Of a stretch of 64,000 nucleotides of DNA, positions 25,844 to 64,000 are shown piece by piece (position 1 is the first letter of the stretch; each line of letters starts with the position of its first letter). Source of the stretch: Chloroflexota bacterium (GTDB lineage Bacteria; Chloroflexota; Dehalococcoidia; JACQUA01); the NCBI GenBank assembly GCA_016210565.1, contig JACQUA010000246.1, positions 1 to 64,000 on the forward strand. The letters run 5' to 3'. The notes beneath the pieces were generated by a model. That model made no database searches. It was given only the letters and a program-made list of their open reading frames with translations, and was not told the DNA's origin. The position numbers and the translations under genes are program-made.

Positions 25844-25872
25844 TTGACATACGTTCCGTTTGCTGGTACAAT
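25844..25872 (+). promoter_or_regulatory. Promoter of the rplU-rpmA-rpmE operon
   Basis: TTGACA (25844-25849) and TACAAT (25867-25872) are 17 bp apart, with TGG before the -10 box. This is the strongest promoter in the window. The leader would be only about 18 bases, leaving room for the GGAGG but not for an autoregulatory structure. Confidence 0.85.
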
Positions 25873-25896
25873 TTTGAATCCTGGAGGTATACGAAC

Positions 25897-26250
25897 ATTT
25901 ACGCGATAGTTGAAACCGGTAGCAAGCAGTACAAGGTTTCCCCGGGCCAGACCATCGAGGTGGAGAGCTTGCCCGTTGCCGAAGGGGACAAAGTAGAACT
26001 GGATAGAGTTCTCATGGTGTCCGATGGAGACAAGGTCGCCATCGGCAACCCGGTTGTCGCCGGGGCCAAAGTCCTGGCCACCTCCCTCGGCACTAATAAA
26101 GGGGAAAAGGTCATCATTTTCAGGTATAAGTCCAAGGTCCGCTCCCGCCGCAAGAAGGGCCATCGCCAGCTTCTGACTAAGCTGGCCATCGACCGGATCA
26201 CCACTTCCGGCGGGGAAGCCAAAGAGGAGATAAGTTCCCATGGCGCATAA
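25897..26250 (+). CDS. rplU: 50S ribosomal protein L21, apparent AUU start
   Basis: 117 aa. Binds 23S rRNA in the large subunit. The conserved N-terminus ([20 protein letters not shown]) is in frame only if translation begins at ATT 25897, which has GGAGG at 25883-25887, 9 bases upstream. The next in-frame candidate (GTG 25960) would delete the conserved start. The rest ([40 protein letters not shown]) is typical, and the C-terminus is slightly extended. The stop overlaps the rpmA start by 11 bases. First gene of an rplU-rpmA-rpmE operon. Confidence 0.93.
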
Positions 26251-31253: not shown

Positions 31254-32999
31254 ATGCCGGGGCAGCGGCGTCTATGCCTGGTCGTCACGGTAGCATTCAT
31301 CTTTATTCTACCGTCTGTGCCCGTCTGGCCGCCGCCGCAGACCGAAGCCGCCGGATTGAATCCCCTTTTTGAACCCCAAACCGCCCCCGGATCTGCCCAG
31401 GTTGCCACTCCTACATTCGGGTTCCGGCCCCAGGACATTTCACCGACACCGCCCACAGGCCCCGGGCCGGCCATCGCCTGGATCAGGGAGTTTGGCACGG
31501 ATAACACGGACGGCGCTCTGGCCGTCGCCGCCTTTGGCCCGGGGAGTGTCTATGTGGCCGGTTATGCCTATGGCGCCTTCCCCGGCGAGACCGCCCTGGG
31601 CGGCAGGGATGCCTTTCTCGCTAAATTAGACGGCTCGGGGAATGTGCTGTGGGCAAGGCAATTCGGCGCCTCTCAGGAGGACTATGCCACCGCCGTAGCT
31701 GTGGATGGCCCCGGAAACGTTTACGTGGCCGGCGACAGAGATGGCTATTATGTCCAGGGGCCGCAGTCCCTGATAGGGGGCTTCAACGGGTTTATCTGCA
31801 AGTATGACAGTTCAGGTAATCAATTGTGGGCGAGGACTTTCAGCAGCGGCAACACCCAGTATACCTATGGTGTAGCTGTGGATAGCTACGGGAATGTCTA
31901 TGCGGCAGGGTACACCTACGGCGTCTTCGAGGGACAGATCCCGTCCGGTGGTTCGCAAGATGCCTTTGTTGTGAGCTATGATAGCGTGGGGAACATGCGG
32001 TGGGCAAGGCAGTTCGGCACCGGCAGGTTTGACGCCGCCTCCGGCATAGCCGCCGACGGCGCCGGAAACGTCTATGTGACGGGATCTACCGGAGGGACCT
32101 ACCCCGGCCAGGTCCCCGCCGGTGGCAATGACGCTTACATACGCAAGTATGACAGCGCCGGGTATGCACAGTGGACAAAGCAATTCGGGACAAGTTTACC
32201 CGACTATGCCCAGGGGATAGCAGTGGATGGCTCAGGCAACATTTACGTGACCGGGGACACCTATGGCGCTTTCCCCGGTCAGGCCCACCTGGGCCTTCAA
32301 GATGCTTTTGTGGCCAGGTTTGACAGCTATGGCAATCTGATATGGACGAGGCAGTTCGGTACGGACGCTAACGAATATGCCAAAGGGATAGCGGTGGACG
32401 GCTCGGGCAATATCTTCTTGGCAGGTGAGACATACGGGAGTTTCCCGTTTAATCTGCCCTCATCGGGTGGTTGGGATATCTACATCAGCAGCTACAACAA
32501 CCTGGGCGACTGGTTGTGGAGCAGGCAGTTCGGCACCAGCCTCGACGACCACATCGGTGGCATAACGCGTGGCAGCCCTGGAAACGTCTATGTAGCAGGC
32601 TCCACCAATGGGGTTTTCCCCGGCCAGACACGTTCAGGTTGGTGGGACGCCTTTGTCGCTGGGATTCCGGGATCGGTCCCGGCCACGCCAACCCCATCAC
32701 CCTTTCCAAGCCTGACGCCGATGCCTTCGCCGTTAGCCAGCCCCACGCCGGCGCCGACTCCTTTCCCATCTCCCACACCGGGGCCATTCCCAACCCCTAC
32801 TCTCACGCCTGGCTACCTTCCTGGTGATGTTAACCGGGACGGCCGGGTCGATGCCGCCGACCTGAACCTGCTGATGGCTTCGTTCAACAAACGCGCCGGC
32901 GATGCCGGTTTTGACCCGAACGCCGACTTCAACGGCGACGGCATCGTTGACGTCTTTGACCTCGCCACAATAGGACTTAACTTTGGGAGAACACAATAG
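31254..32999 (+). CDS. Secreted SBBP-repeat protein with C-terminal dockerin
   Basis: 581 aa from ATG 31254 with aagggg upstream. Signal peptide about 1-32. Residues about 70-465 hold seven or so SBBP (PF06739) propeller repeats of about 55 aa, each with a core like [20 protein letters not shown] and ending RQFGT. A Pro/Thr/Ser linker (about 478-517) leads to a type I dockerin: [20 protein letters not shown] and [20 protein letters not shown], two F-hand calcium loops in tandem. Dockerins bind cohesins, and a cohesin-like protein is encoded at 62654 onward. No enzyme domain is present. It is probably a surface scaffold or adhesion protein. Confidence 0.88.
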
Positions 33000-33105
33000 A
33001 CAATCCTGAGACCCCACGAGCCGGTTGCAATCAGCCCGGTCCCACTGAGTTGAACGTACGTATTGCGCGGGGAGACCTGAAATGCATACGAGCCAGGAGT
33101 GCAAC

Positions 33106-36100
33106 ATGAGGTACTCATTGAGAAGATTGGTGTCCGTCGCGCTGCTCCTGTTCTTGCTATTCCCTCTGGTTGCACAGCCTCCGTACGAAGCGGGGGCTTC
33201 CAGCAATATCGCGCCATTGGTTCCGGCCTCCAGGTCCGGTCCCCAGGATACGGCTCCCGGCACGGCGTGGACGCGGCAGTTCGGCACCGGCGCTGCGGAC
33301 CACGCTAATGCAGTGGCAACGGACAGCTCCGGTAATGTCTATGTGGTGGGTAGCACAAACGCCGCCCTGCTTGACCAGACTTTCTATGGCGCGTCTGATG
33401 CCTATATCCGCAAGTATGACGCCTCGGGAGTTGAGTTGTGGACCCGCCAGTTCGGCGGTACTGCGGCCGGTGATTCCGACTCCGCTTTTGGGGTGGTCGT
33501 AGACGGCTCGGGCAATCCCTACGTGGTCGGGCATACCACAGGCGCTTTGCCGCTCCAGACCCATTTGGGCGCCGCCGGCGCTATGGATGCCTTCATACGA
33601 AAATATAATAGCGCCGGGACGGAGCAATGGACACGCCAGTTCGGCTCCACCGCCGACGACTATGCTTTTGGCGTGGCCCTGGACGCTTCGGGCAATGTCT
33701 ATGTGGCAGGCCATACCTACGGCGCCATGCCCGGCAAGCCTTACTATGGTAATAGTGATGCCTATGTTCGCAAATACAACCCGTCGGGAGTGGAGCAATG
33801 GACCAGGCAATTCGGCGCCAGCGGTTACGAGTTTGTTAGCGCCATCGCCCTGGATGGCTCGGGAAATGTCTATGTGGGGGGTTCGGCTTCCGGTAATTTA
33901 AGCGGAACTTCTGCCGGAGGTTATGACGCTTTTCTGGCATCTCTTTTTGGCAGCACCGGGACCACGCAGTGGCTCGATCAATTCGGCACTGCCGGCAGCG
34001 ACCAGGTCAGCGGTGTTGGCGCCGACGCTGCCGGAAACATCTATGTGGCCGGTCATACCTCGGGCGCCCTCCCGGGACAGACATCTTCCGGCAACTACGA
34101 CATATTTGTGCGCAAGTACGATGATTGGGGTATTGAGCAATGGACCAGCCAGTTTGGCAGCAGTCTGGATGACCAATGTTTCGGTGCAGCCGTGGACGGT
34201 TCGGGAAATATTCATCTGACTGGCTATGCCCCTGCCGCCCTGCCCGGGCAAACATTCCTTGGCGGCAAGGATGCCTTTGCAAGCAGGTATGACAGCGCCG
34301 GTAAAAGGCTATGGACCCTCCAGTTCGGCAATAGTAGTGATAACTATGCTCGCGGTGTCGCCACGGATGGGACGGGAAACGTCTACGTAGCGGGGTCTAC
34401 CGACGGCGCACTCTCAGAACAGACCTCATCGGGTGGGACGGATGCTTTCATCCTGAAGCTGGCAGCGGCGCCGGTCCCTACCCCCTCGCCTTCGCCGTTT
34501 CCCACACCGTCTCCGTCGCCCACACCAACAGCTTCGCCGTCACCCAATCCTTCACCAACTCCCGCGCCCACGCCCACGCTTACGGCTACACCATCTCCAT
34601 CGCCGGTTCCGTCACCTTCCCCATCGCCCACACCTACACCCTCTCCGTCTTCTTCTCCGTCGCCGCCGCCAAGCCCGACGCTATCTCCCACCCCAACTCC
34701 TTCACCTACGGCAAGCCCTACGCCATCTCCGTCTCCAGGTCCGACTGCCACACCATCGCCAACCCCGTCACCTACGCCTTCACTGATGTTCACGGTCCTG
34801 CCGCTGCCAAACGCAACTTTGTGGCCTATGTGGGACGTGGGATGGAAACCCGACGGCAGCTATGCCCTGGTCACCGGCTGGGGAGGCAAGGCCTTCAAAT
34901 TTGATGGCGCCAATGTCAGTCCCCTGAATTCAGAAACCACCGGGGACCTGTACGGCGTTAGCTGGAAACCAGATGGTTCCTACGCCATCATTACAGGGGG
35001 ATCCGGCGGGGTCCAGAGGGTTATCTTGAAATTCGACGGCGACTCCTTTACCCCCCTGACCAGCGACCCTGGTTACACTGTCACCGACGTCGCCTGGAAG
35101 CCCGACGGCAGCTATGCCCTGGTGGTCGGTGAAGTCAACCTTATTCAGAAATATGACGGGGCTACTTTTACTGACCTCGTGGCTCCCGAGAATGGTATCA
35201 GTCTATTCGCGGTCGCATGGAAACCTGATGGCAGCTATGCCCTGATCGCTGGCGCGGGCGGTAGAGTTGTTAAATACGATGGGACCAGCGTAACTACCCT
35301 TGTTTCAGGCGGTGGGTATGACCTGCGCAGCATCACCTGGAAGCCGGATGGTAGCTATGCTCTACTGGTAGGTGACGGCGGGACGGTCATTAAGTACGAT
35401 GGCTCCTCTTTTTCGACCCTTCGCGAAGGAACAGGGTCCACCCCATACCGTTACAGCCGGGCCGTGGCATGGGCAGGTGATGGCAGCGCTCCCCTGATTG
35501 TGGGCTTCGTAACTCCGGATCCCTTTTTGGCCGGTGTGGGTTCAATAGAGCGGTTCAATGGCGCGACCTTCGAGACGATCGACACCGGTCCCCTGACCCC
35601 GGGACTGTTCGGTCTGGGATGGAAACCCGACGGCAGTTGTGCACTGATGGTCGGCAGTAATGGGACTATCCTCAAATACCTGCCGACAGGTATACCAAAC
35701 ACGCCGTTTCCGCTGCCTCCGCTTCCAGCGGGACTAACCGTCTTGACGAGTGGAGCGAACGCCAGTCTAAGAGACGTGGGGTGGAAACCCGATGGCAGCT
35801 ACGCCCTCATCGTTGGCAATGGAGGTACGGTCCTGAAATATGACGGGGCCAGCTTTACCAGCCTCACTTCCGGAACTACTATGGATCTCTTCAGCATAAG
35901 CTGGAAACCGGACGGCGGTTACGCGCTTATCACGGGGGGATATGGCGGCACCCAGAAGCTGGTCCTCAAGTACGACGGGGATTCCTTCACAACCATTGCC
36001 AGTGACAGCGGGTCCTGGGTTTATGACGGCGCCTGGAAACCTGACGGCAGCTATGCCATCGTGGTCGGTTACAACGGTTTTGTCCAGAAGTACGATGGAA

Positions 36101-36894
36101 CATCACTATCCGACCTTGCTCCTCCTTCCGGATCCTATTCGGCGGTTGCCTTCAATCCTGCGGCGCCCCGATATGCTTTAATAACCGACACAAGCGCTAC
36201 CAACAGGCGGATTCTGAGGTTTGACGGTAATACTTCCACTTTCACCTCAATATCCTCCCCCGTTTCTGGAAACCTGCAAGGCGTATCCTGGGCTTTGGAT
36301 AATACCGCCACCATTGTTGGCTCCGGCGGCCATGTGCTGGTATACGACGGGGGGAGCCTCACCGCCCTCAACTCGGGAACTAGCGAAACGCTTAGCGATG
36401 TGGCCTGGAAAGGCGACGGCGGCTACGCCTTGATTGTTGGCTCGGCGGGTACAATTCTGAAATTCACCGGCTTCACCTTTCAGTCTATCTCCTGGGGATT
36501 CGCGTCCCTATCCGGAGTGGACTGGAAGCGTGACGGGACCATCGCTCTCATGGTTGGCTCGAACGGAACAGTCTATCAATACAGTCCGGCCGGACCTGCG
36601 CCAACTCCCACTCCCACACCTTCCCCAACACCATCGCCAACCCCCACAGCGACACCCACGCCAGGCCCGACGCCTGCGGTAACGCCCACTCCAACGCCGG
36701 CAGCGGGCTATTTGCCCGGCGATGTGACCCGGGACGGCCGGGTGGATGCCGCCGACCTGAACCTGCTGATGGCTTCATTCAACAAACGCGCCGGCGATGC
36801 CGGTTTCAACCCGAACGCCGACTTCAACGGCGACGGTATTGTTGACCTCTTTGACCTGGCTGCGGTGGGCCTCAATTTCGGCAGGACGGCGTGA
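33106..36894 (+). CDS. Large secreted two-propeller protein with dockerin
   Basis: 1262 aa from ATG 33106 with AGGAG upstream. Signal peptide about 1-28. SBBP repeats occupy about 47-450 ([20 protein letters not shown]). A low-complexity Pro/Thr/Ser linker of about 100 residues follows (456-557). A second, different propeller type (about 560-1160) is built from a dozen or more repeats of the [20 protein letters not shown] kind. A shorter linker (about 1162-1200) precedes a type I dockerin nearly identical to that of the upstream protein ([20 protein letters not shown]). The paralogous ends suggest duplication. It is a likely long stalked surface protein; no catalytic site is seen. Confidence 0.86.
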
Positions 36895-38837: not shown

Positions 38838-39551
38838 TTACCATTTCCTCGCCAGGACCTCCCCGGCGTCCAGCGTCCCGGCATAGAAGGCCTTGCCGAT
38901 AATGACGCCTTCCATCCCCAGAGCCGCCAGCTTTTCCAGGTGCTGGACCGAAGCAACACCCCCGGAGGCGATGATGGGTAGCGTCGTCGTCTTCTTCAAC
39001 TGCGCCAGCGCCTGGAAATTGGGACCCTCCAGCGTGCCGTCTCTGCTGATGTCGGTGTAGATGATCCGCTGTACGCCCAGGTCCGCCATCCTGGCAACCA
39101 GGTCTTCCGGACGCATCTGCGTGTTGTCTGTCCAGCCCTTCACCGAGGCCATACCGTTCCTGGCGTCAACCCCTACGACGACGGCGGGGCCGAATCTGCG
39201 ACAGGCTTCCTTGACCAGGGCGGGATCCTCGATGGCGGCAGTACCCAGGACAACCCTCTGGACACCCGTGTCCAGGGCTCTGACAATGGCTTCGATGTCC
39301 CGCAGCCCACCCCCCAGTTCCACTGGCGCTTTCACCGCGGCGACGATTTCCCGTATCACGGGCCAGTTTTGCGGGGCGCCTTTCGCCGCCCCGTCCAGGT
39401 CGACAACGTGCAGGCGCGGCGCCCCCAGCGATTCCCATTTGCGGGCAAAGTCCACCGGGTCGTTGCCGAAGACAGTTTGGAGGTTGAAGTCCCCCTGGTA
39501 GAGGCGGACGCAACGCCCGTCCCTGATGTCAATAGCAGGTATGATTTCGAT
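38838..39551 (-). CDS. hisA: HisA isomerase, apparent AUC start
   Basis: 237 aa TIM barrel that isomerises ProFAR to PRFAR in histidine synthesis. The conserved start IEIIPAIDIRDGRCVRLYQG is in frame only from ATC 39551. Three codons further upstream is a TGA, and the next in-frame start (GTG 39455) would delete the catalytic-Asp strand. GAGG lies 7 bases before the ATC. Other motifs are LHVVDLDGA, VELGGGLRDIEAI, YTDISRDGTLEGPN (second catalytic Asp) and IIASGGVASVQHLEKL. It lies between a flavodoxin-like gene and hisF. Confidence 0.94.
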   Translation of the reverse strand: MEIIPAIDIRDGRCVRLYQGDFNLQTVFGNDPVDFARKWESLGAPRLHVVDLDGAAKGAPQNWPVIREIVAAVKAPVELGGGLRDIEAIVRALDTGVQRVVLGTAAIEDPALVKEACRRFGPAVVVGVDARNGMASVKGWTDNTQMRPEDLVARMADLGVQRIIYTDISRDGTLEGPNFQALAQLKKTTTLPIIASGGVASVQHLEKLAALGMEGVIIGKAFYAGTLDAGEVLARKW

Positions 39552-61923: not shown

Positions 61924-62650
61924 GGTCAGATGAAAGCGCTCGAATCCGTCCGAATCACCCGGATATCGGACCGTACGGAAGGAACAAGGGGGGTGGCCGT
62001 CATTGCGAGCGAAGCGAAGCAATCCCCCGGCAGACCGGCCGGGCTATCGGCTGTCGGCTGACGGCCCGCGGGCCGTCATTGCGAGTCCCGATTCGTCTGG
62101 AAGACTCATCGGGACGAAGCCGTCCCCTGGTCGCAGAGGCGAACCCGTGTGTTCGCCCGCCGGCGGGCAGACACGTGGGTCTGCCCCTACGGTAGCGGGA
62201 CTTTTCCGGCTTTTGGTCATTTGGATTTGTTTGGAACTTCGACTTTGGGATTTGTTACTTCTCGTCAGGAGAACCTGACGAGCTTGACATTCCCGGCATG
62301 ACCAGCCACCCCAGCTTCCCCACCCCCGTCTGTGCTCAACCCACCCTGCAGGGTTGCTAACCGGTGGGGAAATGCCAAACGGCGTGGGCCCCTCGATGCC
62401 CTGCAACTCAGACACCAGGGGAGACTTTGGTGAACTGTAGCGACCCGCGATGCATCGAGGTCGTGCCAGTCTGAGCACCAGGTTTTCGACCCCGACGCGT
62501 CGGGACAAGGGGTGTCGCTACGAAGTTTCCCAGTGTCTGAGTTGCAGCACGATGCCGAAAACCACGATGCCGAAAACCCTTGCGTTTCTTCCTCGAATGT
62601 TCTAAACTCTACTTTTCAACTCGCTGCTTCCGGGCAGTTTGAGGAGGATT
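61924..62650. repeat. Repeat-filled gap before the cohesin-like gene
   Basis: Contains tcattgcgagcgaagcgaag units (61999-62030, 62077-62115), a gggcgaacccgtgtgttcgc-like block (62138-62195; relatives at 43165-43225 and 50105-50135), and a tgtgctcaacccaccctgca fragment. No gene is seen. Confidence 0.6.
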
Positions 62651-62653
62651 TGC

Positions 62654-64000
62654 ATTAACAGGACCTATCGCGGCGTTACTGTCATTGTCGTTTTGCTGGC
62701 GGTCTGGTCCCTTTTCCCCGGTCGCTCTCTCACAGGCCCGGACCGCTCTCTGGCGGCGGCCCCTCTAGACGTCGCCGCGTCGGCCGCCACCATCGGGTCA
62801 GCCGTCATTCCCGGAGTGGGAGCAACCGGCGTCACCAGCATCCGGCTGGAGGGTTATACAGGGTCAGGCGGAAGTTTTTTTCATTATTACGGGAGGGTAA
62901 ACTACAATCCAGCCATTGCAAAGGTGAAGGGCGTACAGTTCCCGGCCCCCTTCCGTGGAACTGCACACAGCGAGACGCCCGGGGCGCTCTTCATCGACGC
63001 CGATATATGGCCGGAGGCCGGCCCCACCGGTCCGCTGGTGGTCCTGGCCACGATCACCTGGGAAGGCGTGGCTCCGGGTACCACGGCTCTTGACCTCAAG
63101 TTGGAGGCCGGGTACACCGGATTCGTTAGTTATCAAGCGGTGACCGCCCCCGGGGGTGGACCTCTAACCATCAACAACGGCTCGGTGACAGTTTCAGGCT
63201 CGGCGGCGACGCCAACGCCAACGCCCACCGGCACTCCGCCGCCAACGCCGGACCCGCAGGCGCGGGTGGGAATGGATAACATCAGGATTCCGCTTTTCGG
63301 GACGGGGAAGAACGTGGTCTACATGACCCCGCCCACGGGCGGCGAATACGTACTTTCCAGGTACGACCTTACTATTACGTTCGACAAGACCATAGTCCAG
63401 GTCGTGGGCGTGGAGTCAGGACAATCCCTCAGTGATTACGGCGTCACGCCGACCACCAATCCCCTCGCCGAGGCGAATTCAGAAGGCCGCCTCTCGCTGA
63501 ATGCGAGTCAGGCCGAAAACCGAGTCCGCCGGGGGCCGGTCATACTGGCCACTGTCACCTTCAAGGGAATCAGGGAAGGCCTGACTTCGAACGGTGCAAT
63601 ATTCATCAATCTTAAGGATGGCAACAACGAATTATACCCCGCCCCCGCGCATGCCTGGAATATCGGGAGCGAAGAAGTGTACGGACCCTTCGAAATGCAG
63701 TTCGGCCCGGGCATTCAACTGGACGTCAACGGGGCGGCTGCCAGCAACGCGCCGGCGCCGTATCTGCCAGGCGCTATGTCCCCGGCCGGGGCGCGGCCAT
63801 TGACCGCCGGGGCCGCGGGCGACGCGTATGTCGCGGGAACCATTGCCGGCGGAGGCGCCTTCCCCGGTCAAACGGCGTCCGGCGGCGCCGACGCTTTCGT
63901 ACGTAAATACGATAACTCCGGCAATGCCCTGTGGACCAGGCAGTTCGGATCCGGCGCGGACGATTTTGCCTACTCGCTGGCCACGAATACCACGGGCGCT
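62654..64000 (+). CDS. Secreted cohesin-like/SBBP protein, apparent AUU start, 3' end cut
   Basis: At least 449 aa; runs off the window with no stop. ATT 62654 is taken as the start: GAGGAGG (62641-62647) lies 6 bases upstream, a signal peptide follows at once (NRTYRGVTVIVVLLAVWSLF), and no ATG, GTG or TTG sits there in frame downstream of the site. Residues about 40-182 (RVNYNPAIAKVKGVQFP, VVLATITWEGVAPGTTALDL, INNGSVTVSG) and, after a Thr/Pro linker, about 200-355 (YDLTITFDKTIVQVVGVESG, VILATVTFKGI) look like two cohesin-type modules. SBBP repeats begin near 382 (GDAYVAGTIAGGGAFPGQTA). Dockerin proteins at 31254 and 33106 are possible partners. Confidence 0.75.
   Translation, partial: MNRTYRGVTVIVVLLAVWSLFPGRSLTGPDRSLAAAPLDVAASAATIGSAVIPGVGATGVTSIRLEGYTGSGGSFFHYYGRVNYNPAIAKVKGVQFPAPFRGTAHSETPGALFIDADIWPEAGPTGPLVVLATITWEGVAPGTTALDLKLEAGYTGFVSYQAVTAPGGGPLTINNGSVTVSGSAATPTPTPTGTPPPTPDPQARVGMDNIRIPLFGTGKNVVYMTPPTGGEYVLSRYDLTITFDKTIVQVVGVESGQSLSDYGVTPTTNPLAEANSEGRLSLNASQAENRVRRGPVILATVTFKGIREGLTSNGAIFINLKDGNNELYPAPAHAWNIGSEEVYGPFEMQFGPGIQLDVNGAAASNAPAPYLPGAMSPAGARPLTAGAAGDAYVAGTIAGGGAFPGQTASGGADAFVRKYDNSGNALWTRQFGSGADDFAYSLATNTTGA

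Follow-up and report, generated by a model that had tools for sequence, protein, structure and literature searches.

AUU and AUC start codons at rplU and hisA, and probably at a cohesin-like gene, in a Dehalococcoidia genome

The window analyzed in this study is a stretch of 64,000 nucleotides (positions 1 to 64,000 of contig JACQUA010000246.1) from a Chloroflexota bacterium. As shown in Table 1, it contains rplU, which encodes ribosomal protein L21 and is followed by rpmA, as well as hisA and a cohesin-like gene at its right end. The start region of rplU is GGAGG-TATACGAAC-ATT-TAC-GCG, and the 22 open codons upstream of it contain no ATG, GTG or TTG in frame. The start region of hisA is TGA GGA TCA TCC ATC GAA ATC ATA CCT. 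No in-frame ATG, GTG or TTG precedes the conserved N-terminus of HisA, and the next conventional start would delete the conserved EIIPAIDI motif. The family profiles of both genes begin at residue 2 or 3. The closest named relatives of this hisA are from Chloroflexota. In the only same-family genome compared (G001), hisA (59% protein identity) likewise starts at AUC, behind AGGAGG. In the case of the cohesin-like gene, the bases were read directly: GAGGAGG is followed by ATTTGC (6 nt) and then by ATT, all within GGGCAGTTTGAGGAGGATTTGCATTAACAGG. A preliminary description of the window had placed a GAGGAGG 6 bases before ATT 62654, and this is confirmed in the sequence; the frame from this ATT is open for 887 codons. 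The product shows a weak match to Pfam Cohesin (E=4.7e-4; 20.8 bits, under the 24.1 cut-off), similarity to SBBP propeller repeats and a C-terminal Dockerin_1 domain (Pfam, 1.4e-10). Its N-terminus appears to resemble a signal peptide.

Table 1 Features of the window that bear on the start codons of rplU, hisA and the cohesin-like gene
Feature	Position	Strand	Evidence or remark
rplU promoter TTGACA-17-TACAAT, 11/12 matches	25844..25872	+	leader of ~18 nt predicted (inferred)
Shine-Dalgarno (SD) GGAGG of rplU	25883..25887	+	sequence
rplU (L21), AUU start at 25897	25897..26250	+	no in-frame ATG/GTG/TTG upstream; Pfam L21 from residue 2
rpmA (L27) ATG start, conventional; internal control gene	26240..26242	+	sequence
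hisA, AUC start at 39551	38838..39551	-	in-frame TGA 3 codons upstream; GAGG at 39562-39559
Rival in-frame TTG, cohesin-like gene	62639..62641	+	without SD, overlaps SD of ATT; posterior 0.06 or 0.38 by prior
SD GAGGAGG, cohesin-like gene	62641..62647	+	log-odds +3.9 for ATT 62654 vs -1.3 for TTG 62639
AUU start codon, cohesin-like gene, proposed, probable	62654..62656	+	6-nt spacing; posterior 0.88 or 0.33 by prior
Cohesin-like/SBBP/dockerin gene	62654..64000, runs past window to stop at contig 65317	+	Pfam, SBBP similarity

We infer that the class of this genome is Dehalococcoidia, because the closest named hisA relatives are from Chloroflexota and because two closed class-mate genomes (1.5-1.7 Mb) contain 27 and 21 reductive-dehalogenase matches. 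These class mates, G013 and G087, are rich in reductive dehalogenases and resemble Dehalococcoides/Dehalogenimonas. The start codon of rplU was surveyed in 393 genomes of the class with the pattern GAGG-N4..12-DTN-TAY-GCN...GG(K)Q; one codon per genome was read by eye from the matched strings. The 141 matched genomes, which are related and hence non-independent, had ATT (100), ATC (15), ATA (2), ATG (12), GTG (7), TTG (3), GTT (1) and GTC (1). Thus, rplU starts with AUH (AUU, AUC or AUA) in 117 of 141 matched Dehalococcoidia genomes, spanning dozens of families; the pattern searches used here detect rplU, hisA and rpmA only where a GAGG SD and the specified residues are both present. Within the other Chloroflexota classes, AUH was found in 0 of 28 rplU matches, all of which had ATG, GTG or TTG, and an ATH-only rplU pattern matched 0 of 263 genomes outside the class. 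The neighboring gene rpmA showed AUH in 0 of 101 class matches. Fisher p values were 3e-45 for rplU versus rpmA and 6e-18 for the class versus other classes; these values are inflated by relatedness, though the families are many.

For hisA, 72 class genomes matched, with ATG (33), ATA (14), TTC (9), ATC (8), GTG (7), TTG (1) and ATT (0). AUH is therefore present in 22 of 72, and AUU never. In the nine TTC matches, translation presumably begins at another codon, upstream of the TTC. Sixteen genomes have AUH at both genes: in these, rplU has ATT in 16/16 and hisA has ATA in 11 and ATC in 5. The AUH starts sit about 6-10 nt behind a strong SD (GGAGG, GAGG or GAGGAGG). At both rplU and hisA, the AUH start is forced or conserved and gene-specific, and that of rplU is class-specific within the phylum. 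In four genomes (G042, G037, G012 and G026), an ATG lies 1-5 codons upstream of the usual rplU start; here the start seems to have shifted upstream, as though escaping the AUH codon.

Next to conservation stands frequency. Among the 372 genes called in about 600 kb of this genome, rplU, hisA and infC have no usable conventional start. Further candidates are the cohesin-like gene and one ACG gene, and the total is 4-5/372. Outside the window (about 537 kb, about 330 called genes), only infC, which has AUA, and the ACG candidate were found. With three cases in its 64 kb, the window holds them at a higher density than the genome does, and this density is not typical. In the closed Dehalococcoides-like genome (G013), 400 kb with 341 genes gave five cases, namely infC, rplU, hisA, RuvX and a phosphoglucomutase/GlmM-like gene. 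AUH starts are accordingly not used by a large share of genes in either genome; they are rare, at about 1 to 1.5% of genes. The comparison for this genome-wide rate was E. coli, and beyond that only the counts for single genes in other classes. In E. coli regions chosen for infC and pcnB, the unsupervised scan flagged infC and missed pcnB; therefore, the power of the scan is limited and the AUH frequency is underestimated. A published reconstruction found one AUG-to-AUU switch among 61,358 AUG starts (PMC5622118). The AUA of infC was left out as lineage evidence because infC is atypical in many bacteria (PMC5472188).

Several by-products of the scan should be mentioned. An EM fit of start codons with all codons free was undiscriminating, since any codon gained likelihood. 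A class mate with 70% GC (G059) was discarded as a control because the frame model chose wrong frames, and an apparent additional AUH gene (L120:115) is a COX1 fragment. The ACG gene of this genome encodes a queuosine precursor transporter (L113:3671, + strand), with the ACG 8 nt behind GAGGAGG; this start is only a lead, because a GTG 12 codons later also yields the full domain. In G013, the phosphoglucomutase/GlmM-like gene (L249, ~11016, - strand) and ruvX (L244, ~16836, + strand) have no usable ATG, GTG or TTG and apparently start at AUA.

We consider it very probable that Dehalococcoidia start a small set of genes naturally at AUH codons through the ordinary fMet tRNA and a strong SD, and that the cohesin-like gene is most likely one of these genes. 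The set would comprise infC, rplU, hisA and a few others. In this mechanism, the strong SD would place the fMet initiator tRNA (anticodon CAU) on the AUH codon despite the third-base mismatch, and the proteins would begin with fMet. By analogy with infC elsewhere, a weak AUH start at rplU or hisA would give a lower, IF3-sensitive output; in the case of rplU, the near-consensus promoter directly upstream would compensate for the weak start. IF3-sensitive regulation is thus a plausible function of the AUH starts by this analogy. More specifically, the discrimination of AUU (or AUA/AUC) by IF3 might control L21, together with HisA, and so couple the supply of L21 to the levels of IF3 and free 30S subunits, much as IF3 controls its own synthesis, while the AUU of the cohesin-like gene would use the same tolerance. 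We put this forward tentatively. The other view of the same codons is that they are neutral leftovers, tolerated as weak starts in slow-growing lineages and without a regulatory role. This is a serious possibility, though we stop short of calling it probable. Merely about 1% of genes are affected, and hisA mixes AUH with AUG and GUG across the class, as expected from neutrality. However, simple drift should mix the three AUH codons (chi-square 87, inflated by relatedness), whereas rplU keeps AUU in 100 of the 117 AUH genomes over dozens of families and AUU is not used at hisA in those genomes. The constant ATT at rplU and the ATA or ATC at hisA within the same 16 genomes therefore speak against plain drift.

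The inclusion of the cohesin-like gene depends on the choice between two codons. TTG 62639 lies in frame, five codons before ATT 62654, and a product started there would begin MRRICINRTYRG. Because this TTG adds only the residues MRRIC, the signal peptide fits both starts and does not discriminate between them; the earlier proposal that the signal peptide begins at the ATT holds for that codon and equally for the TTG. Orthologs of the N-terminal part were absent among 60 relatives, where matches were only to SBBP repeats, and conservation therefore cannot decide this start. A start model, for which 372 genes of this genome served as the training set, was run with an AUH prior of 0.8% (as found here) or 0.05% (E. 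coli-like). The posterior of ATT 62654 was 0.88 with the former and 0.33 with the latter, and that of TTG 62639 was 0.06 and 0.38, respectively. A start at TTG 62639, or at an internal TTG or GTG, with the GAGGAGG coincidental or merely internal, has in its favor that about 14% of the starts in this genome are TTG, that no ortholog is available for comparison and that with the E. coli-like prior its posterior equals that of ATT. In contrast, TTG 62639 has no SD, ATT 62654 lies behind a full GAGGAGG at optimal spacing, and the class-informed posterior favors ATT. We regard the TTG or internal start as unlikely, and AUU 62654 is the probable start on this moderate evidence. With this TTG as a possible start, the case for the cohesin-like gene is weaker than that for rplU or hisA.

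The preliminary description had counted three AUU/AUC starts in 64 kb and had taken them as a sign of relaxed or specialized initiation in this lineage rather than isolated errors. The count stands for rplU and hisA, which have no alternative, and is only probable for the third gene. Specialization is what the data support, since the starts are class-wide, gene-specific and rare. A lineage trait is likewise borne out, though not one peculiar to this organism, given the 117 of 141 rplU genes. A general loss of initiation stringency, by an altered IF3 or by an initiator tRNA with another anticodon, is very unlikely. AUH starts do look commoner than in E. coli. However, almost all other genes, including rpmA, retain ATG, GTG or TTG, and IF3 is intact: a profile search found both Pfam domains, and the protein aligned over its full length to E. 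coli IF3, so that IF3 is neither missing nor lacking a domain in this genome. By pattern search, this genome has one normal CAU initiator-type anticodon stem, GGGCTCATAACCC; other pattern matches are unconfirmed tRNA candidates. With IF3 complete and this stem present, the ordinary machinery would read AUH with the help of the SD. The third-base pairs that IF3 accepts in vitro are limited to certain ones (PMC10158994).

It might also be argued that L21 is N-terminally extended from an upstream conventional start, so that the Ile is internal. We consider this highly improbable. In some genomes an in-frame ATG, TTG or GTG is present upstream of rplU, and a few (G042, G037 and G012) seem to have an upstream-shifted start. 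However, the upstream frame has no ATG, GTG or TTG in 22 of the 56 rplU loci inspected, many loci have stops 1-5 codons upstream, and the SD spacing suits the ATH codon. Moreover, 39 of 46 AUH rplU loci have a -10 hexamer with at least 5/6 matches in the interval from -60 to -14, against a mean of 4.9 and a maximum of 10 loci in shuffles, and in most cases a good -35 is present at 17-18 nt. The promoters are so close that the predicted transcripts begin near the SD. The -10 box is usually 28-47 nt upstream, so that a large part of the frame before the AUH codon is probably untranscribed. For example, in the window, the usual transcription start about 7 nt past the -10 box gives the short leader listed in Table 1, and the upstream frame would therefore go untranscribed. 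As for sequencing or assembly errors that changed ATG to ATT or ATC, the genome is a MAG (419 contigs, 6.4% contamination), but identical codons occur in independent genomes, single-contig class mates included, and for rplU, conserved over dozens of families, and hisA, with AUC also in G001, this conservation refutes an error; we give this explanation hardly any weight.

AUU is the start codon of pcnB in E. coli, outside infC. This is similar to our cases in that AUU starts a gene other than infC, and differs in that, to our knowledge, it is a single gene from one lineage. As far as we know, non-canonical starts occur very rarely, and only in infC, pcnB and a few regulators. The infC genes of E. 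coli, Streptomyces and S. aureus, which start at AUU, AUC or AUA and are autoregulated, share with rplU and hisA a conserved AUH codon behind a good SD, and infC of this genome belongs to the same type. In contrast to infC, one of the genes described here encodes a ribosomal protein and the other is biosynthetic; repression by IF3, known for infC, is a possibility for these two. The S. aureus genes cvfC1 and ccpN also combine a conserved, clade-shared AUU or AUA with a strong (extended) SD; their products are a putative regulator of small size and a repressor of transcription, whereas rplU encodes a stoichiometric ribosomal protein and its AUH is conserved class-wide (PMC13009471). The S. aureus starts gave about 10% of the AUG output in poor medium (PMC13009471). 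Streptomyces sigR resembles our cases in that a non-canonical start was overlooked by annotation pipelines; it differs in the gene and in the codon, GTC, whose repression by IF3 was demonstrated experimentally (PMC5472188). Among the papers searched, none describes AUU at rplU, and none describes it in Dehalococcoides. At rplU, which encodes a universal ribosomal protein, AUH is fixed across most of the class Dehalococcoidia. Consequently, gene callers that accept only ATG, GTG and TTG should mis-set or miss the L21 and HisA starts there. Dehalococcoidia rplU is also a naturally occurring case in which to test whether start codons can control ribosome assembly.

On this contig, three SBBP beta-propeller proteins (31254-32999, 33082-36894 and 62654-64000) each terminate in a dockerin type I domain; a cohesin-like domain is also present in one of the three. 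A non-cellulosomal cohesin-dockerin network in this Dehalococcoidia lineage is possible. In the window, an intergenic dispersed repeat of the TCATTGCGAGCGAAGCGAAGCAATCCC type is present at 62000-62180.
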